The notes below the pieces were generated by a model, which had not been told where the DNA came from, searched no databases, and saw nothing but the letters and a program-made list of their open reading frames with translations. From NCBI GenBank assembly GCA_023666705.1, contig JAMPBO010000005.1, positions 124,001-188,000 on the forward strand: DNA of 64,000 bases, written 5' to 3'. A program made the translations under genes and the position numbers. Origin of the DNA: Bacteroides sp. (lineage in GTDB: Bacteria; Bacillota; Clostridia; Lachnospirales; Lachnospiraceae). Shown piece after piece: positions 29,746 to 52,092 of this stretch (positions are counted from its first letter, which is position 1; each line of letters begins with the position of its first letter).

Positions 29746-30383
29746 TGAAGTTAAAATATTTTATAAGAGGACTTGGTGCAGGAATCATATTTTCCGCTGT
29801 CATTTTATTAGCTGCATATATGACGGGTGGTGCGTATAAAATTTCCGATGAGGAAATAATAAAAAGAGCGGAAAAGCTTGGAATGATACAGGATGATAAG
29901 GATATCATTGCTTCGTCGGGCTCTGCAAGCGGAAAGGAAGAACCGTCTGCCAGTGAAAAAACGACAACAGAGGCACCTACAACGGATAAAATGACATCGG
30001 AAGATACTGCAACGTCTGAAGATACGGAAGAATCTACAACAGAAAATACAACGACAGAGGCTACGACAACAGAGGCACCTACGACAGAAAAACCGACAAC
30101 GGAGGCTACGACAACAGAGGCACCTACGACAACAGAACGGACTACAACGGAAAAGCCGGGAGACGGAGATTATGTGAAGGCTACCATAACCGTACAGGCA
30201 GGTATGGGCTCCTACGAGGTTGCTGTCTTGCTTCAAAATGCAGGAATTATCAAGGATGCAAGTGACTTTGATGTTTATCTGAACAGAAACGGTTATTCTA
30301 CCCAGATACGAATCAAGTCGCAGGAGTTTAACAGCAATATGTCCTATGAGGAAATTGCCAAGCTTCTCGTAAAGGAAAATTAA
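29745..30383 (+). CDS. MltG/YceG N-domain-like protein with Thr-rich stalk
   Basis: The 212-residue protein has one N-terminal membrane segment (about 8-28), then a Thr/Glu/Pro-rich stalk (about 65-140) built of TTTEAPTT-type repeats. The C-terminal domain of about 70 residues contains ITVQAGMGSYEVAVLLQNAG and a closing MSYEEIAKLLV, which resembles the LysM-like N-terminal subdomain of the endolytic transglycosylase MltG. The MltG catalytic domain is absent, so it is probably a wall-binding or regulatory protein rather than an enzyme. Its start overlaps the swrB-like stop, so it is the last gene of the motility unit. Confidence 0.72.
   Translation: MKLKYFIRGLGAGIIFSAVILLAAYMTGGAYKISDEEIIKRAEKLGMIQDDKDIIASSGSASGKEEPSASEKTTTEAPTTDKMTSEDTATSEDTEESTTENTTTEATTTEAPTTEKPTTEATTTEAPTTTERTTTEKPGDGDYVKATITVQAGMGSYEVAVLLQNAGIIKDASDFDVYLNRNGYSTQIRIKSQEFNSNMSYEEIAKLLVKEN
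30057..30131 (+). repeat. In-gene direct repeat encoding Thr-rich stalk
   Basis: Two identical 30-base units at 30057-30086 and 30102-30131 lie 45 bases apart inside a wider tract of degenerate ACAACAGAG-type units. They encode the repeated Thr/Glu/Ala/Pro stalk of the MltG-like protein. Such repeats can change copy number by slippage without frameshift because the period is a multiple of three. Confidence 0.85.
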
Positions 30384-30453
30384 AGGTACATAACGGCTTT
30401 TATGAAGAGTATACAGACAAAAAATTAGTGTTTTTATTTTTTCATTCAAGAAT

Positions 30454-30477
30454 AAAAAGTGCTTGCGGGCACTTTTT
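30454..30477 (+). terminator. Terminator ending the motility cluster
   Basis: The arms AAAAAGTGC (30454-30462) and GCACTTTTT (30469-30477) pair perfectly around the 6-base loop TTGCGG. It lies 70 bases after the last motility gene. Its loop also forms the -35 of the rpsB promoter. Confidence 0.85.
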
Positions 30478-30491
30478 ATTTATGTTATAAT
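30463..30491 (+). promoter_or_regulatory. rpsB-tsf promoter overlapping the terminator
   Basis: TTGCGG (30463-30468, which is the terminator loop) and TATAAT (30486-30491) are separated by 17 bases, with extended -10 TG at 30483-30484. Transcription would start near 30498, about 120 bases before rpsB. The -35 is weak but the extended -10 is strong. Confidence 0.7.
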
Positions 30492-30497
30492 CAGCTT

Positions 30498-30620
30498 CGT
30501 GTGAAAAAACATGTGGGTGGATAAGTAGACTGGTGCCATCATAACGCAGGTGGTCTCTACGAAATAAAACACATTTATATTTTTGAATCCCACAGAAGTG
30601 AAAAACCAAGGAGGTATATT
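30498..30620 (+). promoter_or_regulatory. Structured rpsB 5' leader
   Basis: The leader of about 120 bases can fold into a closing helix TGTGGG (30512-30517) with CCCACA (30589-30594). An inner helix GTAGA (30525-30529) with TCTAC (30556-30560) and an apical helix CCATC (30536-30540) with GGTGG (30549-30553) lie within it. The ribosome site AAGGAGG follows at about 30608-30614. This shape suggests autoregulation by a ribosomal protein such as S2, but I recognise no named leader family. Confidence 0.45.
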
Positions 30621-31376
30621 ATGAGCGTTATTTCAATGAAACAGTTACTGGAGGCAGGTGTTCATTTTGGACATCAGACAAGAAGATGGAATCCTAAGAT
30701 GGCTGAGTATATTTATACTGAGCGTAATGGAATTTACATCATTGACTTACAAAAGTCTGTTGGTAAGGTGGACGAGGCATACAAGGCAGTGCTTGATTGT
30801 GTTTCAGAAGGCGGAAAGATTCTTTTTGTCGGTACAAAGAAGCAGGCACAGGATTCTGTTAAGTCAGAGGCAGAGAGATGTGGCATGTATTATGTTAACC
30901 AAAGATGGTTAGGTGGTATGCTTACAAACTTTAAGACAATTCAGACAAGAATTGAGAAGCTTAGAAAGTATGAGGCTATGGAGGCTGACGGTACATTTGA
31001 CGTTCTTCCTAAGAAGGAAGTAATTGAGATTAAGAAAGAAATGGATAAGCTTCAGAAGAACCTTGGCGGTATCAAGGACATGAAGACAATTCCTGACATG
31101 ATATTTGTAGTTGATCCACGCAAGGAAAAGAACTGCGTGCAGGAGGCTCATGCACTTGGAATTCCGCTTGTTGGCATTGCAGATACAAACTGTGATCCGG
31201 AGGAGCTTGATTATGTAATTCCGGGAAATGATGATGCAATCAGGGCAGTAAAGCTTATCGTATCTAAGATGGCAGATGCTGTTATTGAGGCTAACCAGGG
31301 TGCGGACGCAATGACACCTGAGGAGGCAGAGTCCATGGAGGCTGATGCCGAGGAGGAAGCTGCTGAGGAGGCATAA
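30621..31376 (+). CDS. rpsB: Small ribosomal subunit protein uS2
   Basis: The 251-residue protein matches S2 over its whole length. [20 protein letters not shown] is near the N-terminus, with [31 protein letters not shown], and [14 protein letters not shown] with VIPGNDDA in the second half. The C-terminus is an acidic Glu/Ala tail. S2 joins the 30S subunit late. It is followed by tsf as in almost all bacteria. It has its own promoter and structured leader. Confidence 0.98.
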
Positions 31377-31410
31377 GATACGAACTGCAGCGTCAAAGAC
31401 GCTTTGTTCT
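31377..31410 (+). repeat. Dispersed leader repeat, copy A (before tsf)
   Basis: This 34-base element starts directly after the rpsB stop. It matches copy B (51313-51366) at 28 of 34 bases, including ACTGCAGCGTCAAA and the closing CTTTGTTCT. In this copy GCGTC and GACGC pair around AAA, followed by TTTGTTCT, so it may act as a weak attenuator between rpsB and tsf. Confidence 0.65.
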
Positions 31411-31460
31411 ACAATTCATGATATTGGTTTATATATAATTTAGTTAGGAGGACTATATAG

Positions 31461-32396
31461 ATGGCAGCTATTTCAGCTAGTATGGTTAAAGAGTTAAGAG
31501 AAATGTCAGGTGCCGGAATGATGGACTGTAAGAAGGCTCTTACAGAGTGTGACGGTGATTTTGATAAGGCTATGGAGTTCCTGAGGGAAAAGGGACTTGC
31601 AACTGCACAGAAGAAGGCAGGAAGAATTGCAGCAGAGGGTATTGTTGCAACAACTGTGATTGATGGCGGAAAGACAGCAGCAATCGTTGAGGTAAATGCT
31701 GAGACAGATTTTGTTGCTAAGAATGACGTGTTCCAGGGATATGTAAAAGAGGTGGTTGACCAGCTTGTTACAAGCACTTCTGAGGATGTTGATGCCTTTA
31801 AGGCAGAGAAGTGGGCAAACGACCCATCCATGACGGTAGAGGAAAAGCACGCAGCTATGATTGCCAAGATTGGCGAGAATATGACAATCAGAAGATTTGA
31901 GAGAATCAAATCAGATGGCATTGTTGTATCATACATTCATGCAGGCGGAAAGATTGGTGTTCTTGTTGAGGCTGATACAGATGGTTCAGGGGAGGCAATT
32001 GAGGAGTGCTTAAAGAATGTTGCAATGCAGGTTGCAGCCATGAATCCGAAGTATGTTTCAACTGACGAGGTATCAGAGGAGTACAAGGCACATGAGCTTG
32101 AAATTCTTGTTGCACAGGCTAAAAATGACCCTAAGAATGCGAGCAAGCCTGACAATATCATCGAGAAGATGGTACAGGGACGTCTTAACAAGGAGCTTAA
32201 GGAGGTTTGTCTTCTTGAGCAGGAGTATGTTAAGGCTGAGAACAAGGAAAATGTTGCTGCATATGTAGCATCTGTTGCAAAGGCACAGGGATGCAGGCTT
32301 GCAGTTAAGAAATTTGTCCGTTTTGAGACAGGTGAAGGTCTTGAGAAGAAGAATGAGGACTTTGCAGCAGAGGTTGCAGCCCAGATGGGAATGTAA
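31461..32396 (+). CDS. tsf: Elongation factor Ts
   Basis: The 311-residue protein has the N-terminal UBA-like domain (AISASMVKELREMSGAGMMDCKKAL, about residues 3-40) with the TDFVAKN core motif near residue 80. The paired dimerisation domains and a C-terminal helical part ending AAEVAAQMGM follow. EF-Ts exchanges GDP for GTP on EF-Tu. TTAGGAGG precedes ATG 31461. It is followed by a strong terminator. Confidence 0.97.
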   Translation: MAAISASMVKELREMSGAGMMDCKKALTECDGDFDKAMEFLREKGLATAQKKAGRIAAEGIVATTVIDGGKTAAIVEVNAETDFVAKNDVFQGYVKEVVDQLVTSTSEDVDAFKAEKWANDPSMTVEEKHAAMIAKIGENMTIRRFERIKSDGIVVSYIHAGGKIGVLVEADTDGSGEAIEECLKNVAMQVAAMNPKYVSTDEVSEEYKAHELEILVAQAKNDPKNASKPDNIIEKMVQGRLNKELKEVCLLEQEYVKAENKENVAAYVASVAKAQGCRLAVKKFVRFETGEGLEKKNEDFAAEVAAQMGM

Positions 32397-32433
32397 GCAA
32401 TTCCAAATTATATGAATATTTGTTGTATATAGC

Positions 32434-32467
32434 AAAAAGCCGTTGGATCAGGTTCCAGCGGCTTTTT
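32434..32467 (+). terminator. Intrinsic terminator after tsf
   Basis: AAAAAGCCG (32434-32442) pairs with CGGCTTTTT (32459-32467). The stem continues through a mismatch with TGGA and TCCA. The T-run is part of the descending arm. It closes the rpsB-tsf unit. Confidence 0.88.
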
Positions 32468-32475
32468 GAAGTTAC

Positions 32476-32502
32476 TTGATAAAACCGGACGAATTGTATA
32501 AA
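32476..32502 (+). promoter_or_regulatory. Possible promoter for pepD
   Basis: TTGATA (32476-32481) and TATAAA (32497-32502) lie just after the tsf terminator but with only a 15-base spacer, so the call is weak. About 85 bases of leader would separate it from pepD. Confidence 0.3.
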
Positions 32503-32586
32503 ATAAATAATAGAAAGTTTTATACGATTTGTAGAGCAGGCGGAATAAAAAATTCATAGTATATAGAAAATGTTTGGAGGCGTATC

Positions 32587-34038
32587 ATGTCATTATCTGA
32601 ATTATCACCCAAAGAGGTATTTGATTATTTTCAAAAGCTTGCAGCTATTCCCCACGGTTCGGGAAATACGGACCGTATTGCCGAGTTTTGCATGGAATTT
32701 GCAAAGGAGCACGGACTTAGGGCAAGAAAAGACGAGGCAAATAATGTTGTTATTTTTGCAGATGGTTCACCAGGCTATGAAAAAAGTGAGCCTGTGATTT
32801 TGCAGGGACATCTGGACATGGTCTGTGAAAAAGACGAAGACTGCAGGTTAGATATGGAGCAGGATGGTTTGGAGGTTTGTACGGACGGTGTGAAGGTCTG
32901 GGCGGAAGGAACCACACTTGGCGGCGATGATGGAATTGCAATTGCTTATATTTTGGCAATTCTTGCATCAGATACCATTCCGCACCCACCCATTGAGGCA
33001 TTGCTTACCAGTGATGAGGAAATCGGAATGCTGGGAGCCAATGCATTGGATGTCAGGGACCTCACTGCAAAGCGGCTCATCAACATAGACTCAGAGGAGG
33101 AAGGGGTGCTTTATGTAAGCTGTGCAGGCGGTGTCAGTGCACTCTGCGATATCCCATTTTGCATGGAGCAGACAAATCAGGCGGCAGAATGTGCATACCG
33201 CATCACAGTGAGCGGACTTTTGGGAGGACATTCCGGCACGGAAATTCATAGGAACCGGGGCAATGCAATTAAGCTTCTCGGAGCTGCACTGGCAAGCATG
33301 AGCCGCACATGTACACTTTCGTTAGTCCATGTTTCGGGCGGTGGTAAAGAAAATGCAATTCCAAAGACAGCGGAGGCAACGGTATGTGTTCCTGCAAATC
33401 AGGCACATACACTGGAGCAAGGCATAACGGAATTTTTAAAACTGATAAATCAGGAGCTGTCTGCGGCAGAACCTGGGCTTCTCATCACCGCAACACCTGT
33501 AGATATGCCGAAGCAATGTATGAATCAGGAAAGTACAAGGCGTGTGATTTTTGCATTGCAGCAATTTCCTGACGGTATGCAGAAAATGAGTTCTGAAATT
33601 GAGGGATTGGTACAGACCTCATTAAACTTAGGTATTTTGTTTATGGAGGATGACCACGTTGTGTTTCAGTGTTTAATCCGAAGCAACACTGCTGGTGGAA
33701 AGCAGCTTATCATGGAGAAGGTGACTGCATTTACTGGGTATCTTGGCGGTACGGTGACGATGCAGTCGGATTATCCTGCATGGGAATATCGGGCGGAGTC
33801 AAGACTCCGTGAGATAATGATTCATACCTATGAGGAGGTATATCAAAAGGCACCGCATGTGACTGCAATTCATGCAGGACTGGAGTGCGGTATCCTGGCA
33901 GGGAAAATGCCGGATGTGGACATGATTTCCTTTGGACCGACGTTGGAAAACGTGCATACACCAAGGGAGAGCATGGATGTGGCATCCGTAAAAAGAAGCT
34001 GGTACTATTTATTAAAGGTACTGGAGAATCTTCAATAA
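32587..34038 (+). CDS. pepD: Aminoacyl-histidine dipeptidase (Xaa-His dipeptidase) PepD
   Basis: The 483-residue M20 family metallopeptidase shows metal-binding stretches VILQGHLDMVCEKD (about 77-90), LGGDDGIAIAY (bridging Asp) and TSDEEIGMLGA (catalytic Glu pair). It also has DSEEEGVLYVSCAGG, which is typical of PepD. A lid/dimer domain fills the middle (about 205-390). It hydrolyses Xaa-His dipeptides such as carnosine in the cytoplasm, with zinc. TTGGAGG precedes ATG 32587. It stands alone between the tsf terminator and the promoter of the next gene. Confidence 0.93.
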   Translation: MSLSELSPKEVFDYFQKLAAIPHGSGNTDRIAEFCMEFAKEHGLRARKDEANNVVIFADGSPGYEKSEPVILQGHLDMVCEKDEDCRLDMEQDGLEVCTDGVKVWAEGTTLGGDDGIAIAYILAILASDTIPHPPIEALLTSDEEIGMLGANALDVRDLTAKRLINIDSEEEGVLYVSCAGGVSALCDIPFCMEQTNQAAECAYRITVSGLLGGHSGTEIHRNRGNAIKLLGAALASMSRTCTLSLVHVSGGGKENAIPKTAEATVCVPANQAHTLEQGITEFLKLINQELSAAEPGLLITATPVDMPKQCMNQESTRRVIFALQQFPDGMQKMSSEIEGLVQTSLNLGILFMEDDHVVFQCLIRSNTAGGKQLIMEKVTAFTGYLGGTVTMQSDYPAWEYRAESRLREIMIHTYEEVYQKAPHVTAIHAGLECGILAGKMPDVDMISFGPTLENVHTPRESMDVASVKRSWYYLLKVLENLQ

Positions 34039-42405: not shown

Positions 42406-44694
42406 ATGAGAGTACACGAATTAGCAAAACAATTATCAAGTGAATTAAATAAAACAATAGCCAGCAGTGAGCTTTTGGTAAAGCTGGCTAAGAAAAAAGA
42501 GGGGTTAAAGCCGCAGAGCAGTATCAGTGAGGATTTAATCCAATATTTAAGGGATATTTACATGAAGGAGGCTGCAGTACCTGTAAAAAGTGAAAAGGAA
42601 GAAGCAAAGCAGGAAACGGCACCAAAAGCAAAGCCAAAAATGAAAAAGGAGCCAAAGCCGAAGCTAGAGGCAAAGACTCCCGTTGCTGCCCCAAAGGCAC
42701 CAGAAGCAAAAAAGCCAAAGAAGGAGCAGAGTAAGGCGGAGATTGAAAAGCAATCAGGTGCTCCGAAACAGCAGGGTAAGCAACAGCAGAGTAAACCTCA
42801 ACAGGGAAAACAGCAGGGAAACCGTCCACAGCAAAATAAAGGGCAGCAGGGAAACCGCCCGCAGAATAACGGGGTAAAGCAGGGAAAAAATACGAACCAG
42901 CAGCCGCCGCGTCCAAAGAAACAGGAGCCTGTTGAGCCGGTAATAAAATCTCTGGTGCTTCCGGAGTCCCTTACTGTCGGTGAGCTTGCAGATAAGATTA
43001 AGGTACCTGTTGCACAGATGATTAAGAAGCTGTTTATGGCAGGTAAAATGCTGAATGTAAATTCAGAGCTTGACTTTGATTCAGCGGCAGATATTGCTTT
43101 GGAGTATAATTTTATTGCGGAGCTTGAGGAAAAGGTAGATGTAATCGAGGAATTACTCAAGGAGGAGGACGAGGACGAATCACTTATGACACCACGTCCA
43201 CCTGTTGTCTGTGTAATGGGACACGTTGACCATGGTAAGACCTCACTTCTTGATGCAATCAGAAATTCATCCGTTATTTCAGGTGAGGCAGGTGGTATTA
43301 CCCAGCACATCGGTGCATCAGTTGTATCAATAAACGGTGAGAAGATTACATTCCTTGATACACCGGGACATGAGGCATTTACGGCAATGAGAATGAGAGG
43401 TGCCCAGTCTACGGATATTGCAATTCTTGTGGTAGCGGCAGACGACGGTGTTATGCCGCAGACCGTTGAGGCAATCAACCATGCCAAGGCGGCAGGAATC
43501 GAAATTATTGTTGCAATCAACAAAATAGATAAGGAAAGTGCAAATATAGAAAGAGTAAAGCAGGAGCTTATGGAGTATGAGCTTGTTCCTGAGGATTGGG
43601 GCGGTTCCACGATATTCTGTCCTGTTTCTGCACACACAAAGGAGGGTATTGACAACCTCCTTGAAATGATTATCCTTACAGCACAAATACTGGAGCTTAA
43701 GGCAAATAAAAAGCGTAAGGCGAGAGGTATCGTCATTGAGGCACAGCTTGACAAGGGACGTGGTTCCGTTGCAACCGTGCTTGTTCAGAAGGGTACCCTC
43801 CGGGTTGGTGACTGCGTTGCCATGGGAGATGTGCACGGCAAGGTAAGGGCCATGTTTGATGATAAGCACAGAAAGGTTAAGGAGGCATATCCTTCTACCC
43901 CTGTTGAGATACTTGGTCTTAACGGTGTTCCGCAGTCAGGAGAAATATTTATGGCCACCAACTCCGAGAAGGAAGCAAGACAAATCTCAAATGCATTTAT
44001 AGACAGAGGTAAGGAAAGACTGATTGCAGATACGAAGTCAAGAATGTCACTGGATGACCTTTACAATAAGATTCAGGAGGGTAATGTCAAAGACTTAAAC
44101 CTTATCATTAAAGCTGATGTACAAGGCTCTGTTGAGGCAGTGAAGGCGAGTCTCTTAAAGCTTTCCAATGAGGAGGTTGCAGTTAAATGTATCCACTCAG
44201 GTGTAGGAGCCATAAATGAGTCGGACGTTACGCTTGCATCTGCATCAAATGCAATTATTATTGGCTTTAATATCAGACCTGATAATCAGGCAAAGGATGT
44301 TGCTGACAGGGAAAAGGTGGATATCAGACTTTACAGGGTAATTTATAATGCCATAGAGGATATTGAGTCTGCCATGAAGGGAATGTTAGATCCGATATAT
44401 GAGGAAAAGGTTATCGGACACGCCGAGGTAAGACAGACATATAAGGCATCTGGTGTTGGAACCATTGCAGGCTCGTATGTGCTTGACGGAACTATCCAAA
44501 GAAACTGTACGGTCAGAGTTTCACGTGAGGGTGAGCAGATATTTGAGGGACCACTCGCATCACTGAAGCGGTTTAAGGATGATGTGAAAGAGGTTAAAAC
44601 AGGCTTCGAGTGTGGTCTTGTTATAGAGGGCTTTAATGACGTAAAGGAAGCGGACATAATAGAAGCCTACATTATGCAGGAGGTTCCAAGATAA
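42406..44694 (+). CDS. infB: Translation initiation factor IF-2
   Basis: The 762-residue protein has an N-terminal IF2N helix bundle (about 1-50). A long Lys/Gln/Pro-rich linker of low complexity (about 60-175, e.g. [15 protein letters not shown]) and a second IF2N (about 185-235) follow. The G domain has [22 protein letters not shown] and NKID. Domains II, III and IV complete the protein. It places initiator tRNA on the 30S subunit and promotes 70S joining. The linker length is typical for variation among related strains. Confidence 0.97.
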
Positions 44695-44726
44695 TCCTGT
44701 ATAGAAGTTACATGATAGGAGCAGAC

Positions 44727-45119
44727 ATGAAAAAGACAAGTCATAAAAATCAAAGAGTAAATGTTGAAGTTCAAAGAGAGCTTAGCAGAATTATCAGCAT
44801 GGAGATAAAGGATCCGAGAATAAACCCAATGACATCTGTTACGGATGTGATTGTTACCCCGGATTTGAAATACTGTAAGGTTTATGTCAGTGTTTTGGGT
44901 GACGAGCAATCGGTAAATGACACAATTTGTGGATTGAAAAGTGCTTCGGGATATATCAGGCGGGAAATTGCAAAAACGATTAACTTAAGAAATACACCTG
45001 AGCTTACCTTTGTTGCAGATAATTCAATTGAATACGGTATTGAAATGTCAAAAAAGATTGATGAAGTAATTTCTAAGGATGAAAGTGCTTCAAAAGCATT
45101 GGAAGGTATCGATGAATAA
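44727..45119 (+). CDS. rbfA: Ribosome-binding factor A
   Basis: The protein of about 130 residues has the KH-like RbfA fold: NQRVNVEVQRELSRIISMEI, VTDVIVTPDLKYCKVYVSVLG and LRNTPELTFVADNSIEYG. It helps 16S 5' end maturation and cold adaptation. TAGGAG at 44716-44721 lies five bases before ATG 44727; an in-frame ATG at 44712 has no ribosome site. The stop overlaps the start of nrnA. Confidence 0.94.
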   Translation: MKKTSHKNQRVNVEVQRELSRIISMEIKDPRINPMTSVTDVIVTPDLKYCKVYVSVLGDEQSVNDTICGLKSASGYIRREIAKTINLRNTPELTFVADNSIEYGIEMSKKIDEVISKDESASKALEGIDE

Positions 45120-46062
45120 ACAATTATTTTTAAACAAAATTGAAGCTGCACAAAATATTGCCATTTTAGGTCATATCAGACCGGATGGCGATTGTGTAGG
45201 GTCATGTCTTGGAGCATATAATTATATATTGGACAATTACACAGATAAAAATGTTGTGGTGTACCTTGAGGAAATACCCCATAAGTTTCGTTTCCTGAAG
45301 GGGGCTGCACAGATAAGGCATACGGTTGACGGGTCTGTTTACCAGCTTGCAATTTCACTTGATTGTGGTGCAAGGGACAGACATGGCAAATTTGCAGATA
45401 TATTTGGAAATGCAAAGGATACGATATGTCTTGACCACCATAGAAGCAATGAAGGCTTTGGAAATTATTTTTACTGTGAACCTGATGCATCATCGACATG
45501 TGAGATATTGTACGGGCACTTACATCCTGAAAAAATATCAAAGGCATGTGCTGAGGCATTATACCTTGGGCTGGTGCATGATACGGGAGTGTTTAAGTAC
45601 CCATGTACAACTCCAAGGACAATGCAAATTGCAGGAGAAATGATTTCTAAGGGCGTCAGCTCCCAATATATTATTGATGAAACCTTTTATAAGGTTACAT
45701 TCAACCAGAATAAGCTTACAGGAGAAGCACTGATGAACGCCAAACTTCATTTAGACGGCAGGGTGATTTCTACGTGTATTACGCTTGGCATGTTTCAAAA
45801 ATATGATGCAACAAAAGAGGACACGGATGGAATTGTGGATAAGCTTCGTGTTACGGATGGCGTTGAGGTTGCAATTTTTATTTATCAGCTTGCGGAGCAT
45901 GATTACAAATTCAGCCTGCGTTCTATAGAAAAGGTTGATGTGAGTAAAATTTCTGTCTCCTTTGGCGGCGGCGGACACATCAGGGCAGCAGGCTTTGAGG
46001 TGGAAGGAAATGTGGATGATATACTGGAACGGATACTTGAAATGGTGAAGGAGCAGCTTTAA
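45112..46062 (+). CDS. nrnA: DHH-family oligoribonuclease/pAp phosphatase NrnA
   Basis: The 316-residue DHH/DHHA1 protein has the metal motifs IAILGHIRPDGDCVGS, the DHH-type CLDHHRSN near residue 105, the LGLVHDTGVFKY segment, and the DHHA1 substrate motif SFGGGGHIRAAGF at the C-terminus. It degrades nano-RNA and 3',5'-pAp. It starts at ATG 45112 inside the end of rbfA, with GGAAGG upstream. In related genomes truB follows directly; here two acyltransferase genes intervene. Confidence 0.93.
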   Translation: MNKQLFLNKIEAAQNIAILGHIRPDGDCVGSCLGAYNYILDNYTDKNVVVYLEEIPHKFRFLKGAAQIRHTVDGSVYQLAISLDCGARDRHGKFADIFGNAKDTICLDHHRSNEGFGNYFYCEPDASSTCEILYGHLHPEKISKACAEALYLGLVHDTGVFKYPCTTPRTMQIAGEMISKGVSSQYIIDETFYKVTFNQNKLTGEALMNAKLHLDGRVISTCITLGMFQKYDATKEDTDGIVDKLRVTDGVEVAIFIYQLAEHDYKFSLRSIEKVDVSKISVSFGGGGHIRAAGFEVEGNVDDILERILEMVKEQL

Positions 46063-46087
46063 AATTTAGGTGAGAGTGTGAAAATAG

Positions 46088-47176
46088 GTGGAAAGTAGTA
46101 AGGGAAAAATACAATTTAACAATAATGAATCATTAAAAATCAAAGGTGTTGCGATTATTTTAATGGTATTATTGCATGCTGTCTACCATGCACCGAAGGG
46201 TGTGGTGGTCACCTACGCTTTTTTACCCCAAAATATTGTCCTGAATGTTGCGGGAATGGGAAAGATATGTGTTTCCATGTTTGCCTTTGTGTCAGGCTAT
46301 GGATTATGGAAAAGCTATGAGAGAAGGAAAACAAGCTGTAACAAATGGACGATACGACAGCTTTTTAAGCTGTTTAGCAAGTTTTGGTTTGTATGGATTA
46401 TTACGGCGGTTGCCTGTGAGATTGTATCAGGCAGAAGCCGGGAGGTGTATTTTAAGGATGGAATAATAACCGGAATTAAGAATATTATCATTGAAATGCT
46501 GGGCTTGGCAAAGCTTTTTCATACACCGTCCCTTACAAGCGTCTATTGGTATATTGGAGCTGCCGTTTTCTTTGTTTTGTGTATTCCGTTTTTGTACTAT
46601 ATGAAACAAAATCTGGTGGCGGTGGTATTCATCATAATTCTGCTTCCACGAATTTTGGCGGTAGGAGATAACGGTTTTTTGGGAACCATGAATCCAGGCT
46701 CCTTTTTATTTGTATTTATTCTTGGCGTGATGGCATCTGAGCATGAATTGATTGAAAGGTGGACAGGCACGTTTTGTTTTCGGGGAGGAAAAATAATCAA
46801 ATTTATACTTGAGGTAATACTTTTGTTTATTTGTTATAAGATATATTACATTTTACCACTGCAATCCTACTGGGAAATTCATTGGGGCGTTATTCCGTTT
46901 GTTATCATTGTATTTTGCGTTGAGTTTATCAATCAGATACCTGTGATTTGTAATATGTTAAGCTTTTTGGGAAAACATTCCATGAACATATATCTGGTAC
47001 ATTCCATGTTAAAAAATATGTATTTGAAGGAATGGCTTTATTCGCTTCATAACTGGTTTTTGATTTTGATTGCATTGCTGGCGGTATCGATTGTGATATC
47101 CTATGTAATAGAGGGCTTGAAAAAGCTTCTCAAATTTGATAAATTTGTAGATTTTATATTAGAAAAAGTGAAATAA
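46088..47176 (+). CDS. Membrane acyltransferase (acyltransferase-3 type), copy 1
   Basis: This 362-residue polytopic protein has about ten membrane segments and the acyltransferase-3/OafA-like start. The segment LKIKGVAIILMVLLHAVYHAP carries the conserved His near residue 34. FVSGYGLWKSYERRK follows, and SFLGKHSMNIYLVHSML is near the C-terminus. The family O-acetylates cell-surface polysaccharide or peptidoglycan sugars. The start is GTG 46088. It is inserted in the infB operon and is followed by a diverged tandem copy. The last 230 bases of homology are identical in both copies. Confidence 0.85.
   Translation: MESSKGKIQFNNNESLKIKGVAIILMVLLHAVYHAPKGVVVTYAFLPQNIVLNVAGMGKICVSMFAFVSGYGLWKSYERRKTSCNKWTIRQLFKLFSKFWFVWIITAVACEIVSGRSREVYFKDGIITGIKNIIIEMLGLAKLFHTPSLTSVYWYIGAAVFFVLCIPFLYYMKQNLVAVVFIIILLPRILAVGDNGFLGTMNPGSFLFVFILGVMASEHELIERWTGTFCFRGGKIIKFILEVILLFICYKIYYILPLQSYWEIHWGVIPFVIIVFCVEFINQIPVICNMLSFLGKHSMNIYLVHSMLKNMYLKEWLYSLHNWFLILIALLAVSIVISYVIEGLKKLLKFDKFVDFILEKVK
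46920..47149 (+). repeat. 230-bp perfect duplicate, first copy
   Basis: Bases 46920-47149 are identical, base by base, to 48065-48294, while the upstream parts of the two acyltransferase genes differ at many positions. This sharp change from diverged to identical is the mark of recent gene conversion or recombination. Confidence 0.95.
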
Positions 47177-47794
47177 ACAATACTATTTAAAGCTTATGTG
47201 GAAAGGTGAAGAGTGAAAACAGGTGAAGAACGGTAAGGAAACAATACAATTTGATAATAGTGAATCATTAAAGATTAAGGGAATCGCAATTATAATCGTG
47301 GTGTTGGCTCATATAGTTTATTATGCACCAAAGGGTGTCGAAATTACATATGCGTTTCTACCGGAGCATATTGTTTATCATATAGCCGGTATGGGAAAAG
47401 CATGTGTATCCATGTTTGCTTTTGTGTCAGGCTATGGATTATGGAAAAGCTATGAGAAAAAGAAAACAAGCAGCAATAAATGGACGGTAGGACAGCTTTT
47501 TAAGCTGTTAAGTAAATTTTGGTTTGTGTGGATTGTTACGGCAATTACCTGCGAGCTTATATCAGGAAGAAGCTCACATGTGTATTTTCGGGATGGTATT
47601 TTAACAGGAATTAAAAATATCATAATCGAAATGCTGGGGATGGCAGATTTGTTTCATACGCCGTCACTTACAACTGTATATTGGTACATCGGTACAGCTG
47701 TTTTCTTTGTTTTATGCATTCCGTTTTTATATAAAATGAAGCAATATCTGATACACATATCCCTGATGACAATTCTGTTGCCAAGAATTTGTGA

Positions 47795-47803
47795 GGGGGG
47801 GGG
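47795..47803 (+). repeat. Poly-G tract (9 G) inside acyltransferase copy 2
   Basis: Nine consecutive G in an AT-rich gene. Eight G give the open frame, nine (present here) and seven both lead to a stop within a few codons. Copy 1 has no such tract at the aligned place. Confidence 0.95.
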
Positions 47804-48064
47804 TAGAAATCAGTAGTGGATTTTTTGGAAACAGAAATCCGTGCTCCTTTTTATTGATATTTATTCTTGGGACAATGGCATCTGAGTATGAATTGATTGA
47901 CAAGTGGATAGATGCCTTTCACTTTAAGGGAGGAAAAATAATCAAATTTATACTTGAGGGAATCCTTTTGTGTATTTGTTATAAGGTGTATTACATTTTA
48001 CCACTGCAATCCTATTGGGAAGTTCATTGGGGAATTATTCCGTTTGTTATCATAATATTTTGTA

Positions 48065-48294
48065 TTGAGTTTATCAATCAGATACCTGTGATTTGTAATA
48101 TGTTAAGCTTTTTGGGAAAACATTCCATGAACATATATCTGGTACATTCCATGTTAAAAAATATGTATTTGAAGGAATGGCTTTATTCGCTTCATAACTG
48201 GTTTTTGATTTTGATTGCATTGCTGGCGGTATCGATTGTGATATCCTATGTAATAGAGGGCTTGAAAAAGCTTCTCAAATTTGATAAATTTGTA
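48065..48294 (+). repeat. 230-bp perfect duplicate, second copy
   Basis: Identical to 46920-47149; see that entry. It covers the last three membrane helices of acyltransferase copy 2. Confidence 0.95.
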
Positions 48295-48357
48295 AATTGT
48301 ATACTGAAAAAAATAAATTGATTTCTTTAGAATAAGCAATTACGAAATGTCGTATTA

Positions 48358-48517
48358 TTGAAAAGTAGTTGTACAATATAGACAATATCACAAGCAAGGC
48401 ATTGTGGAGCCGTCGGTACTTAGCGAGGTTTCTTCGAGCTTAGTACCGTTACGTGCGACACATAACGAAAGTGTGCCTTGTGGTGATTTGCCTATATTGT
48501 ACAACGGACGTTTTCAA
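48358..48517. repeat. 160-bp imperfect palindromic element (MITE-like)
   Basis: The outer arms TTGAAAA (48358-48364) and TTTTCAA (48511-48517) enclose a perfect 14-base pair, GTTGTACAATATAG (48368-48381) with CTATATTGTACAAC (48492-48505). The stem continues imperfectly (CAAGGCA with TGCCTTG), and a second hairpin lies inside: CGGTACTTAGCGAG (48414-48427) with GAGCTTAGTACCG (48436-48448). No ORF is present. A TTTCTTTAGAA direct repeat lies at 48322-48332 and 48542-48552, outside the arms. It could be a non-autonomous mobile element or a structured RNA between acyltransferase copy 2 and truB. Confidence 0.72.
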
Positions 48518-48572
48518 AAGATAGAGTTTCAAAATCACCTGTTTCTTTAGAAAACAATAAGGAGATAATTAT

Positions 48573-49523
48573 TTGTTTGATGGTATTTTAAATGTATACA
48601 AAGAGCAGGGCTACACTTCATTTGATGTAGTTGCAAAGCTTCGCAGTATATTGAAACAAAAAAAAATAGGTCACACGGGCACCTTAGACCCTATGGCAAC
48701 GGGAGTGTTGGTTGTCTGCCTCGGCAAGGCGACAAAGCTGGTTGATATGCTGATAGAGGGTGATAAAAAGTATAGGGCATCCATGCTTCTTGGATATCAA
48801 ACTGACACAGAGGATGTGACGGGAGTTGTCACAAAAAGCAGCAGTATGAATCCAAGTGATAATGAGATAAGAGATGCAATCAGTGCTTTTGTCGGCGGCT
48901 ATCATCAGGTTCCGCCCATGTATTCCGCCATAAAGGTTGACGGAAAAAAGCTGTATGAGTACGCACGGGAGGGAAAGACCGTAGAGCGGGTGCCGCGGCA
49001 GGTCGAAATATATTCAATTGAAAACGTGAATGTATACAATCTGGACACTCTGGATATGAGCCTGAATGAAAGCTTTGGCAAAACTGGAAAGCAGAGGCAT
49101 ATCTGTGTGGATATGGATGTCCATTGCTCAAAAGGAACATACATAAGAAGTCTGTGCCGTGATATCGGTGGACGTCTTGGATGTTTTGCAACACTGATGG
49201 CACTTGAGAGGATGGAAGCTCACGGAAACCGTGTGGAACATTCGTTTACGCTTGGTGAAATAGAGGCATACTGCAAGGCAGGAACAATCGGAAATTACAT
49301 ACAGCCGTTGGATTCGCTTCTTGGTGCATATGGCAAACTAAAAATAAAGGATGCGTACCAATCATTCCTTTTAAATGGAAATAAGCTGAAGGAAGCGTAT
49401 TTTGAGGAGATTATGCCTGACAGGTCAGGAATGTTCAGGGTTTATTTAGGAAATGAAATGAAAGCATTATACCGCTATGATGAAAGGGAAAAACTATTCC
49501 GGCCTGAAAAGATGTTTTTATAA
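48573..49523 (+). CDS. truB: tRNA pseudouridine-55 synthase TruB
   Basis: The 316-residue protein has GILNVYKEQGYTSFDVVAKLR at the start and the catalytic stretch GHTGTLDPMATGVLVVCLGKATK (Asp near residue 38). YRASMLLGYQTDTEDVTG and PPMYSAIKVDGKKLYEYAR follow. It makes pseudouridine 55 in the T-loop of tRNAs. The start is TTG 48573, eight bases after TAAGGAG. It resumes the conserved operon after the inserted acyltransferases. Confidence 0.95.
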   Translation: MFDGILNVYKEQGYTSFDVVAKLRSILKQKKIGHTGTLDPMATGVLVVCLGKATKLVDMLIEGDKKYRASMLLGYQTDTEDVTGVVTKSSSMNPSDNEIRDAISAFVGGYHQVPPMYSAIKVDGKKLYEYAREGKTVERVPRQVEIYSIENVNVYNLDTLDMSLNESFGKTGKQRHICVDMDVHCSKGTYIRSLCRDIGGRLGCFATLMALERMEAHGNRVEHSFTLGEIEAYCKAGTIGNYIQPLDSLLGAYGKLKIKDAYQSFLLNGNKLKEAYFEEIMPDRSGMFRVYLGNEMKALYRYDEREKLFRPEKMFL

Positions 49524-49542
49524 AGTGCAGAGGTAAAAGGAC

Positions 49543-50427
49543 TTGAAAACAGTATCGTACGAAAAGGTAAAATTACAAAATACCGTAGTTGCATTGGGCA
49601 AATTTGAGGGAATGCATAAGGGACACATGCTTTTATTGGATGAGGTTATTCATATAGCTGCAGAAAAAAAATTGACAAGTGTGGTCTTGACTGTGAATGT
49701 GCCATCTGATAAAGTAATTAATACAGCATCGGAACAGCATGACATACTTAGAAAGCAAAATATTGATATGGTTGTTCCATGTATGTTTACCAAAGCGTTT
49801 GCATCACTTCTTCCTGAAGAATTTGTTAAACAAATACTGGTTGACGGTCTTGGTGCAAAATATGTGGTCGTAGGTGAGGATTTTCATTACGGGCACAAAA
49901 GGCTGGGGAATTGTGATACGCTAAAGCATGACGGTGCAGTGTACGGCTTCCAACTTGTTTCATTTCCGAAGCTTTCCTTAGATGGAAAAGTGGTAAGCTC
50001 ATCCTATATCAGGGAGCTTATCGAAAGGGGGAAAATGGACGAGGTTTACATGTATATGGGAAGATATTACAAGCTTACGGGAACCGTTGTACATGGGAAA
50101 ATGCTGGGACGTACCATAGGCTTTCCGACTGTAAATATTATTCCTGCCACCGAAAAGCTGTTGCCGCCGTCTGGTGTTTACGCGTCAGAGCTTGAATGTT
50201 GTGGGAAATGTTATAAGGCTGTCACAAATATAGGGTCAAATCCTACGGTTACGGAGGATGAGACAGTTAAAATTGAAACCCATATATTGGATTATAATGG
50301 AGATTTGTATGGCAGGGAAGTGCAGGTATCCCTAAAACGTTTTATTCGCCATGAAACAAGGTTCAACAGTATGGAAGAACTGAAAATGCAGCTTGAAAAG
50401 GATAAGCTTTATGTCATGCAGATGTAA
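49543..50427 (+). CDS. ribF: Bifunctional riboflavin kinase/FAD synthetase RibF
   Basis: The 294-residue protein has an N-terminal adenylyltransferase part (VVALGKFEGMHKGHMLLLDEV, then VVGEDFHYGHKRLG; about 1-155) and a C-terminal flavokinase part (about 165-290) with GKMLGRTIGFPTVNI and KAVTNIGSNPTV. The first motif is GKFEGMHKGH, where many homologues have GxFDGxHxGH. It makes FMN and FAD from riboflavin. The start is TTG 49543. It lies 19 bases after truB, the usual pair. Confidence 0.93.
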   Translation: MKTVSYEKVKLQNTVVALGKFEGMHKGHMLLLDEVIHIAAEKKLTSVVLTVNVPSDKVINTASEQHDILRKQNIDMVVPCMFTKAFASLLPEEFVKQILVDGLGAKYVVVGEDFHYGHKRLGNCDTLKHDGAVYGFQLVSFPKLSLDGKVVSSSYIRELIERGKMDEVYMYMGRYYKLTGTVVHGKMLGRTIGFPTVNIIPATEKLLPPSGVYASELECCGKCYKAVTNIGSNPTVTEDETVKIETHILDYNGDLYGREVQVSLKRFIRHETRFNSMEELKMQLEKDKLYVMQM

Positions 50428-50451
50428 AGCAAAAATATAGTAAATAAATTC

Positions 50452-50523
50452 GCATCAGTAGCTCAGTGGATAGAGCAATGGCCTCCGGAGCCATGTGCGG
50501 AGGTTCGATTCCTCTCTGGTGCA
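50452..50523 (+). tRNA. tRNA-Arg (anticodon CCG)
   Basis: The 72-base cloverleaf has acceptor GCATCAG with CTGGTGC (one T-G pair), D-arm GCTC/GAGC, anticodon stem ATGGC/GCCAT with loop CTCCGGA (anticodon CCG), and T-arm GGAGG/CCTCT with loop TTCGATT. The discriminator is A. CCA is not encoded. It lies 24 bases after ribF. Confidence 0.95.
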
Positions 50524-50530
50524 TGCAATG

Positions 50531-50572
50531 TCCTAAGGAGGGACCCAGCGAAGCTGGGAGGATTCCTTAGGA
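50531..50572 (+). repeat. Nested hairpin/REP-like element after tRNA-Arg
   Basis: TCCTAAGGA (50531-50539) pairs perfectly with TCCTTAGGA (50564-50572). Inside, CCCAGC (50544-50549) pairs with GCTGGG (50553-50558) around GAA. A degraded second unit ACCCAACGAAGCAGGAGG follows directly and supplies the ribosome site of the next gene. It may mark the tRNA 3' end or be a repeat-family member. Confidence 0.7.
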
Positions 50573-50602
50573 CCGACCCAACGAAGCAGGAGGGAGGAGC
50601 TT

Positions 50603-51241
50603 ATGAAAAAAACAAAGAAAGACAAAGGAATTGCAGGTCTTATGCTATTTGTTGGCTGGCTTGTTTTCATACTTCTTGCCCTCATATTTTATTTTTATTT
50701 CAGTAAAGGATTTATGGATTTTTTTAATAAAAAATCCAAATCAGGAGCAGATGCACAAAAAATATATGAGGTAAATAAATATCCTGCGGTAAATTCCTTA
50801 ATTGAAAAATATTTCACTGCGATATCCGAGTGTGATGAAAAAACGTTAAAAAGCCTTGTTTCCAATCCTGCGGAATTTGATGATATGACAAATTATGAAA
50901 AAAGGGCAAAGGTGATTACGGGGTATGAAAATATTATATGCTATACAATCCCCGGATATCAGGAGGGTGATTTGCTCGTATATGTGATAGCCAACCTGAC
51001 ATTTTCGGATGTTACGAAAATTAACAGCAAGCCTTTGGATATCAGCTATTTTTACCTGAAGAAAAATTATGACGATTATTTTATCTTAAATGTAATTTCA
51101 GACGAAAATATAAATGAGTACATAGAAGCCAAATACAAAAACGATGACATACAGAACCTGTATAAATCCGTTAAGGAAAATATAGACTCATGTGCAGCTA
51201 CTGATTCGGCATTTGCCGAATTATATAATAAAATATATTAA
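50603..51241 (+). CDS. Membrane-anchored protein with NTF2-like ectodomain, unknown
   Basis: This 212-residue protein has a basic N-terminus (MKKTKKDKGIAG), one strong membrane helix (about 12-34) and an extracytoplasmic region. That region starts with AVNSLIEKYFTAISECDEKTLKSLV and continues with alternating beta strands (about 60-190), which looks like an NTF2-like fold. No catalytic motif is seen and I do not recognise a named family. A very purine-rich site (AGGAGGGAGGAG) precedes ATG 50603. The gene is closed by a terminator. Confidence 0.7.
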   Translation: MKKTKKDKGIAGLMLFVGWLVFILLALIFYFYFSKGFMDFFNKKSKSGADAQKIYEVNKYPAVNSLIEKYFTAISECDEKTLKSLVSNPAEFDDMTNYEKRAKVITGYENIICYTIPGYQEGDLLVYVIANLTFSDVTKINSKPLDISYFYLKKNYDDYFILNVISDENINEYIEAKYKNDDIQNLYKSVKENIDSCAATDSAFAELYNKIY

Positions 51242-51251
51242 CAGGGATTAT

Positions 51252-51286
51252 GGGCTGTAGACTTTACATGACTGCAGCCCTTTTTA
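51252..51286 (+). terminator. Intrinsic terminator
   Basis: GGGCTGTAG (51252-51260) pairs with CTGCAGCCC (51272-51280) with one T-G pair, followed by TTTTTA. It lies 11 bases after the preceding stop. Confidence 0.88.
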
Positions 51287-51312
51287 TTCATTCATAGGAA
51301 TTTTCCTATAGG

Positions 51313-51366
51313 CAGATTAAAAATTTTGTCAGGATGCGGACTGCAGCGTCAAAAGTACTTTGTTCT
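51313..51366 (+). repeat. Dispersed leader repeat, copy B (before rluF-like gene)
   Basis: This 54-base element aligns without gaps to copy C (63813-63866), 38 of 54 bases identical. Its last 34 bases align with copy A (31377-31410), 28 identical. It ends 24 bases before the start codon of the pseudouridine synthase. Confidence 0.75.
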
Positions 51367-51390
51367 TTCAGGATAGGGGTATGGTTTAAC

Positions 51391-52092
51391 ATGGAACAGG
51401 GAATCAGAATAAACAAATATTTAAGTGAAGCGGGAATATGTTCAAGAAGACAGGCGGACAATATAATCGAGGCAGGTGAGGTTACAGTGAATGGGGAACG
51501 GGCTGTCCTTGGAACAAGAGTATTTGCAGACAGTATTGTAAAATATAAGGGAAAAACCGTAATGCCCATAAAAAAGAAGGTTATTTATGCCTACAATAAA
51601 CCCATGGGACTTGTGTGTACGTCGGAGGAGGCAGATAAGGACAGCATATTTAATTATGCTGATTTTCCGGAAAAGGTCAATTATGTGGGGCGGCTTGACA
51701 AGGATTCACAGGGACTGCTGCTGCTCACAAATGACGGTGCACTTGCCAATAGCATCCAAAAATCTGTAAATAACCATGAAAAGGAATATCACGTACGTGT
51801 CAATAAGGACATTACGGATGAATTTATTTCGGACATGGCAAAGGGTGTCCCTATCCTTGACACGGTGACAAAGAAATGTAAAGTGATAAAGACGGGAAAC
51901 CGGACCTTTAAAATCATATTGACACAGGGGTTGAACAGGCAGATCAGACGGATGTGCGAACAGCTCGGCTACAGGGTTGTACATTTAAAACGGGTAAGAA
52001 TCGTGAATGTTGTTTTAGGAAATTTAAGACCGGGAGATTTTAGGAGCCTTAGTGAAGACGAAGAAAAAAGACTTAGAAATTTGTGCAGGTAA
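51391..52092 (+). CDS. Ribosomal/tRNA pseudouridine synthase, RluF/RsuA group
   Basis: The 233-residue protein has an N-terminal S4 domain (IRINKYLSEAGICSRRQADNII, then GEVTVNGERAVLG). The catalytic domain contains YVGRLDKDSQGLLLLTNDG (catalytic Asp) and LTQGLNRQIRRMCEQLGY, followed by LKRVRIVN. This is the RsuA/RluB/RluF family; the GRLDKDSQGL and QGLNRQIRRM forms favour the RluF subgroup (23S position 2604). ATG 51391 is chosen because the S4 domain starts there; upstream bases belong to the repeat. A GGGG ribosome site lies 12 bases upstream. Confidence 0.88.
   Translation: MEQGIRINKYLSEAGICSRRQADNIIEAGEVTVNGERAVLGTRVFADSIVKYKGKTVMPIKKKVIYAYNKPMGLVCTSEEADKDSIFNYADFPEKVNYVGRLDKDSQGLLLLTNDGALANSIQKSVNNHEKEYHVRVNKDITDEFISDMAKGVPILDTVTKKCKVIKTGNRTFKIILTQGLNRQIRRMCEQLGYRVVHLKRVRIVNVVLGNLRPGDFRSLSEDEEKRLRNLCR

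Follow-up and report, generated by a model that had tools for sequence, protein, structure and literature searches.

Gene arrangement at the locus

In the window, that is, the whole stretch of 64,000 nucleotides analysed here, two acyltransferase-3 (PF01757) genes lie in tandem between an nrnA-like gene and a gene which we presume from its sequence to be truB-like, and a run of nine G splits the second of them (Table 1). The initial annotation had read this run as breaking the second of two paralogous acyltransferases, and the letters of the run, the frames of the ORFs and the PF01757 matches all agree with it. Copy 1 matches the Acyl_transf_3 profile over positions 7-324; the curated cut-off of this profile, 31 bits, is exceeded by copy 1 and by the first half of copy 2, while the second half of copy 2 falls below it (E 2.4e-6). 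Both copies carry VSMFAFVSGY, which agrees with the conserved acyltransferase-3 motif V-x-x-F-F-x-(I/V/L)-S-G-(F/W/Y) (PMC9558356) except at its second F.

Table 1. Features of the tandem acyltransferase locus, in positions of the window
Feature	Position	Strand	Basis
nrnA-like gene, upstream neighbour	45079..46062	+	NrnA model, E 1e-34, under the equivalog cut-off
Copy 1, acyltransferase-3 gene, intact, 362 aa, GTG start	46088..47176	+	PF01757, 78.3 bits
Segment of copy 1 with 100% identity to the 3' part of copy 2	46951..47110	+	Alignment, 40-column blocks
Copy 2, ORF before and across the tract, 197 aa	47223..47816	+	PF01757 positions 7-147, 49.4 bits
Copy 2, ORF past the tract, 176 aa, other frame	47791..48321	+	PF01757 positions 177-324, 27.3 bits
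G9 run, then TAGAA	47795..47803	+	Direct reading of the letters
truB-like gene, downstream neighbour	48573..49523	+	ORF list; name presumed from the sequence

The 197-aa ORF of copy 2 terminates 13 nt past the run. Both halves of copy 2 have open frames and share homology with copy 1 but are not in the same frame, so that at this position a change in tract length would alter the product. Stop codons are found neither in the 189 codons 5' of the tract nor in the 160 codons analysed 3' of it, which bears out the earlier statement that copy 2 has no other lesion. Homology to copy 1 had also been claimed on both sides of the run; it holds for the two halves, each of which matches PF01757, but a stretch of some 25 nt at the tract aligns poorly with copy 1, and copy 2 is longer by 10 nt there. 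As for the length that would restore one protein, eight G does fit, but "exactly eight", as first proposed, is too strict because slippage by threes preserves the single frame, that is, every third length keeps it.

Housekeeping genes surround the tandem pair (nusA and the nrnA-like gene by NCBIfam, the others by eye), and no glycan gene was seen beside it. A scan of positions 44000-52000 with Rfam found a tRNA alone, whose gene lies at 50452-50523. Between copy 2 and the truB-like gene, a long imperfect palindrome with a fold z-score of -7.8 occupies positions 48340-48540; 67 matches to it are listed in its own genome, 19 of them of at least 150 nt with its own copy included, and this repeat is MITE-like.

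Selection and history of the two copies

The first half of copy 2 is clearly under purifying selection. In the codons 5' of the tract, dN/dS is 0.14 between copy 1 and copy 2 and 0.157 between copy 2 and its relative in the genome G036, close to the 0.156 between the intact copy 1 and G036. The second half seems to be under selection too, though somewhat less: over 70 codons after the tract, with the identical stretch excluded, dN/dS to G036 is 0.277 for copy 2 versus 0.226 for copy 1, these codons having a dS of 0.27 between the copies and thus being perhaps partly exchanged themselves, and over 58 codons dN/dS to another relative, G035, is 0.408 versus 0.221. The raised values of copy 2 past the tract may reflect mild relaxation. 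It is to be noted that the two copies are 100% identical in four successive 40-column blocks, following four blocks of 87-95% identity, and that the raised identity begins at about position 46791. This identical 3' stretch points to gene conversion or exchange between the copies in recent times, and the exchanged part says little on selection of copy 2.

How old is the pair? Before the tract, dS between copy 1 and copy 2 is about 1.15, near saturation, versus 0.55 between copy 1 and G036, and because of this difference the copies seem older than the split from G036. Close relatives of the acyltransferase gene are found in three of the 37 genomes of the genus, the present one included. G036 has at this locus a single intact copy that bears no G run, and seems to have lost the second copy or never to have had it; the gene of G035 is cut by contig ends, and its available parts hold no run of at least five G. 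An old pseudogene was considered for copy 2 and rejected, since both halves are open in a gene of such age and the first half is selected. Elsewhere in G035, contig C15 carries at 30365-33806 three tandem acyltransferase-3-like genes (L006, L009, L011), 32-35% identical to copy 1, while at positions 1-130 of L012 (G035:C60) an acyltransferase 3' end begins with unrelated residues near a contig end, behind which a tandem copy or a join made in assembly could lie.

Long G runs in the genome and the genes that hold them

The G9 tract is longer than composition predicts, and this is not a matter of chance. In the window, each further base makes runs of G and C about 6.5- to 10-fold rarer between lengths 2 and 5, and runs of 7 or 8 are absent from its 64 kb. 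Across the whole genome (2.86 Mb on 31 contigs) there are ten runs of exactly seven G, seven of exactly eight, five of exactly nine and none longer, whereas extrapolation from the sevens with a ratio of 0.10-0.14 leads one to expect 0.1-0.2 runs of nine. Even with a generous ratio of 0.3, the probability of at least five such runs is 0.002. In a survey of 99 genomes, poly-G tracts of 7 and/or 8 were over-represented in nine (Orsi et al., PMC2831843).

All five G9 runs sit in genes of surface type by family: two acyltransferase-3 genes, one FkbM methyltransferase gene and two genes for BspA-type leucine-rich repeat (LRR) proteins. The genome has eight acyltransferase-3 genes (nine matches, two of them from copy 2), and because these make up only about 0.3% of it, their share of two of the five runs is unexpected (P about 1e-4 by share of length, with 1.1 kb assumed per gene). 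Since the few G runs of this genome that are equally long sit in surface-type genes, the tract of copy 2 is probably an on/off switch. In the second acyltransferase-3 gene with G9 the frame is open, and this gene lies on a contig of 15.4 kb, C21, which reads as a probable glycan cluster: Pfam finds PglD/hexapeptide transferases, the acyltransferase-3 and a LytTR regulator there, the other ORFs being judged by eye. This poly-G acyltransferase gene, unlike copy 2, lies among probable glycan genes. Three runs are seen within the 15.4 kb of C21 (L074, reverse strand), namely G8 at the end of a PglD-like gene, G9 in the open acyltransferase-3 gene and G8 in the broken LytTR gene. In the FkbM methyltransferase gene the run is C9 on the coding strand and the frame is open. 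In the two genes for secreted BspA-type proteins, G9 follows the signal peptide (assigned by eye) and the mature part lies in another frame; these paralogues, with G9 at about 2286 of L031 and about 773 of L032, are both out of frame, with different offsets. Among the seven G8 runs, one breaks the LytTR regulator, one is in frame within a gene for a PglD-like acetyltransferase and one ends a PglD-like gene, and the remaining four have no clear gene there. Apart from these runs, one more acyltransferase-3 ORF, of 258 aa and on the reverse strand of G000:C22 (L112, at 1405-1487 of this locus), ends early, its end lying some 70 nt beyond six consecutive G. It is overlapped by an open ORF of 124 aa that is read in a different frame; Pfam does not match this second ORF, nor does it resemble copy 1 convincingly. 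L112 is possibly a case of frame loss close to a short run.

Long G runs in the genus

Runs of at least nine G number 42 in 20 of the 37 genomes of the genus, 37 of them in relatives of the present genome. For each of these 37 outside runs the overlapping or next sense ORF was taken, and 30 were scanned with Pfam; the other seven are one beside Ns (L035), one at a contig end (L041), three with short or doubtful ORFs (L037, L056, L067) and two without an ORF (L052, L069). Matches at E 0.001 were obtained for 21 of the 30 scanned genes, and Pfam gave none for the other nine. Two acyltransferase-3 genes (L050, L062) have open frames, an MBOAT gene (L063) is broken at its run, and a hexapeptide transferase (L061) is also found near a run. 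Six genes encode surface-repeat proteins, namely an RHS protein barely above its cut-off (L034), two LRR proteins (L046, L055), and L064, L068 and L070. Seven are signalling genes, with GGDEF/EAL (L040, L054, L066), LytTR (L053), histidine kinase (L058), chemoreceptor (L060) and FIST (L042) matches, and four are others: GNAT (L057), FapA (L059), and two matches below their cut-offs (L036, L044). As the scan covered run-associated genes, this tally is a description and not a tested enrichment. Several of the runs sit upstream of their gene and not inside it.

One pair of orthologous tracts differs in length. The LytTR gene of the present genome has G8 and a broken frame, whereas its counterpart in the sister species G036 has G9 and an open frame, with 77% identity between the two before the tract and 76% after it; the LytTR domain is matched over positions 3-43 of 98 in the former and 3-97 in the latter. 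Pfam gives no receiver-domain match for the G036 gene, so that its open frame is no proof of a working gene, and it may be damaged elsewhere. In three loci of the genus (L039, L042, L065), the same upstream sequence is followed by 10, 10 and 9 G. A palindrome, TTTCCA..TGGAAA, stands just upstream of 9- or 10-G runs at these three loci and at L070, between as well as within genomes, and is perhaps the site of a regulator.

Absence of MutS was tried as a cause of the long runs and rejected: the MutS-family domain MutS_V is found in all 37 genomes, strongly (E below 1e-80) in 34 including the present one, and the three genomes with weaker matches alone are 80-87% complete. Thus, the long runs persist despite MutS.

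The TA that follows long G runs

The tract of copy 2 is followed by TA, and so are many others. Among the loci of the family examined, TA follows 49 of 70 distinct runs of at least nine G, a set that is not random as the genomes G085, G126, G200 and G105 were picked for their many runs, versus 81 of 736 (11%) runs of 4-6. In the genus itself (41 runs, L041 left out), the flank on the G strand consists of T as the next base (73%) and then A (76%), with A enriched 7-9 bases upstream (51-63% versus about 33%). In other genera of the family, TA follows at least 72 runs among the 146 listed outside the own genus. Outside the family it follows 27 of 146 readable runs among the matches listed, two more being unreadable. 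The bias is thus strongest near the present genome and weak outside the family; within this genome, TA follows two of the seven G8 runs and three of the five G9 runs.

What might the TA be? By a rule of ORF length, 21 runs lie inside sense ORFs, and 13 of these have TA next; 44 runs are upstream, intergenic or at a 5' end, and 32 of these do. At four of the 32 upstream tracts followed by TA (L034, L082, L084, L094), a perfect TTGACA stands 18-19 nt before the TA, and from this arrangement the four are likely phase-variable promoters in which the G run would form the spacer between -35 and -10. A T occupies box position 6 in 14 of the 32. Across all 32, however, the mean -35 match is 3.22 versus 3.17 for shuffled flanks, and 117 of 300 shuffles reach 3.22, so that a promoter spacer was rejected as the general cause of TA: promoters account for some tracts and not for all. 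Selection for a stop codon (TAA or TAG) was likewise rejected as the whole cause, because TA also follows antisense runs in the FkbM gene and a LysR gene. Two further candidates for antisense tracts were dropped, L078 since Pfam matches neither of its strands, and L102 since it is close to where an AraC-type regulator ends, with a gene for a solute-binding protein running the opposite way, and was taken as intergenic. The flank is accordingly seen inside genes, in promoters and in two genes on the opposite strand. A bolder reading is that the Lachnospiraceae have evolved a poly-G phasome with a shared flank at the level of DNA, which would be tuned for, or would mark, runs that are hypermutable despite MutS; we regard this as a doubtful idea, to be held only tentatively.

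Copy 2 as a probable contingency locus

With fair confidence, we take the G9 tract of copy 2 as a likely poly-G contingency (phase-variation) locus, and the genome as the likely carrier of a small poly-G phasome. Slippage of the run as a means of phase variation had been suggested in the initial annotation, and the excess of long runs, the classes of genes that hold them, the open and selected halves of copy 2 and the difference in length of the LytTR tracts support it indirectly; the name "surface acyltransferase" stands only at the level of the PF01757 family. According to this scheme, slipped-strand mispairing at replication would alter the number of G in the tract. In the OFF state, which would be that of the assembly, translation of copy 2 would halt just past the tract and leave half a membrane domain, while in the ON state it would continue through the whole membrane acyltransferase. 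An ON cell would then have two paralogous acyltransferases acting and an OFF cell copy 1 alone, if the switch is reversible and the OFF product is inactive, as we infer. A population would be a mixture of cells that differ in the acyl (probably O-acetyl) modification of a surface polymer, and may draw some benefit from it; with the product assigned by its family, both O-acetylation and a glycan substrate are presumptive for copy 2. The tract would be one in a small set of such switches in the genome.

An alternative is that copy 2, a redundant duplicate, suffered a recent one-off frameshift and is starting to decay, the run being a mutation-prone site and not a kept switch. The tandem redundancy with copy 1, the somewhat raised dN/dS past the tract together with the 3' exchange, and the two relatives without a tract in the gene speak for it, as does the early end of L112 past just six G, for which reason acyltransferase-3 genes of this genome can perhaps lose their frame without a long run. 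Against it stand the excess of long runs and the presence of all five runs of nine in surface-type genes; copy 2 has been under long purifying selection before the tract and bears no second lesion, and acyltransferase-3 genes of the genus keep open frames with such runs (L050, L062). We therefore judge it unlikely. It is still less probable that the run length is an error of sequencing or assembly and that the true copy 2 is open. The length of a homopolymer is hard to read, and tract lengths obtained by deep sequencing can differ from those annotated (Penno et al., 2022, PMC9187656), but even with its exact length misread the run would be a long one, and other 9-G runs of the same assembly, in the C21 acyltransferase and FkbM genes, lie in open frames. 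Least probable is that a single DNA sequence gives both a short and a full product through programmed ribosomal frameshifting or slippage of RNA polymerase at the run. Transcripts can slip at long homopolymers, as is mentioned for the poly-A tracts of Buchnera (Orsi et al., PMC2831843), yet the orthologous LytTR tracts differ in the DNA itself, and frameshifting would be meaningless for the many tracts situated upstream of genes. A contingency locus thus remains the reading that we prefer for copy 2.

Relation to known systems and significance

Slippage switches are textbook knowledge for Gram-negative pathogens. In the phasomes of Campylobacter, Helicobacter and Neisseria, surface genes are among the tract genes, and the variation has been measured in part. 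The repeat of the Haemophilus influenzae gene oafA is not known to be poly-G, and Bifidobacterium breve belongs to a phylum other than that of the Lachnospiraceae, a family of common gut Clostridia.

The closest parallel from the gut is B. breve UCC2003, whose sortase-pilus genes carry poly-G tracts (Penno et al., 2022, PMC9187656). Just as in copy 2, a gut commensal has there a G tract in a coding gene that is split into two ORFs, and the length of the tract decides whether they are read as one; the difference is that slippage was measured in B. breve and concerns a pilus gene (PMC9187656), while here it is inferred and would concern a membrane acyltransferase. In terms of the protein, the parallels are oafA of H. 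influenzae and oafB of Salmonella, phase-variable acyltransferase-3 genes of the same family as copy 2 through which the acylation of surface sugars is switched (PMC9558356). The switch of Salmonella oafB is epigenetic, unlike the poly-G of copy 2 (PMC9558356), and the hosts of both genes are Gram-negative pathogens, unlike the Lachnospiraceae host of copy 2. The homopolymer phasomes of Campylobacter, Helicobacter and Neisseria comprise, as here, sets of tracts in many genes of a genome (PMC6321876, PMC2823697, PMC5953494); what sets the present lineage apart from them is that it has MutS and that TA often comes after its long G runs. A 2025 review of phase variation (PMC11868660) covers Clostridioides with its invertible promoters, and those of its passages that match our search terms hold nothing on poly-G in Lachnospiraceae; our search of the literature, too, found no report of poly-G phasomes in this family. 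Thus, the tract of copy 2 would add to a known type of phase variation, and a poly-G phasome in Lachnospiraceae would be without a precedent that we could find.

The TA flank is a feature of sequence that can be tested for its effect on the rate of slippage. If poly-G runs in these bacteria do act as switches for surface acylation and for LRR surface and signalling proteins, the variation of their surface at the level of strains would be directly measurable from sequencing reads.
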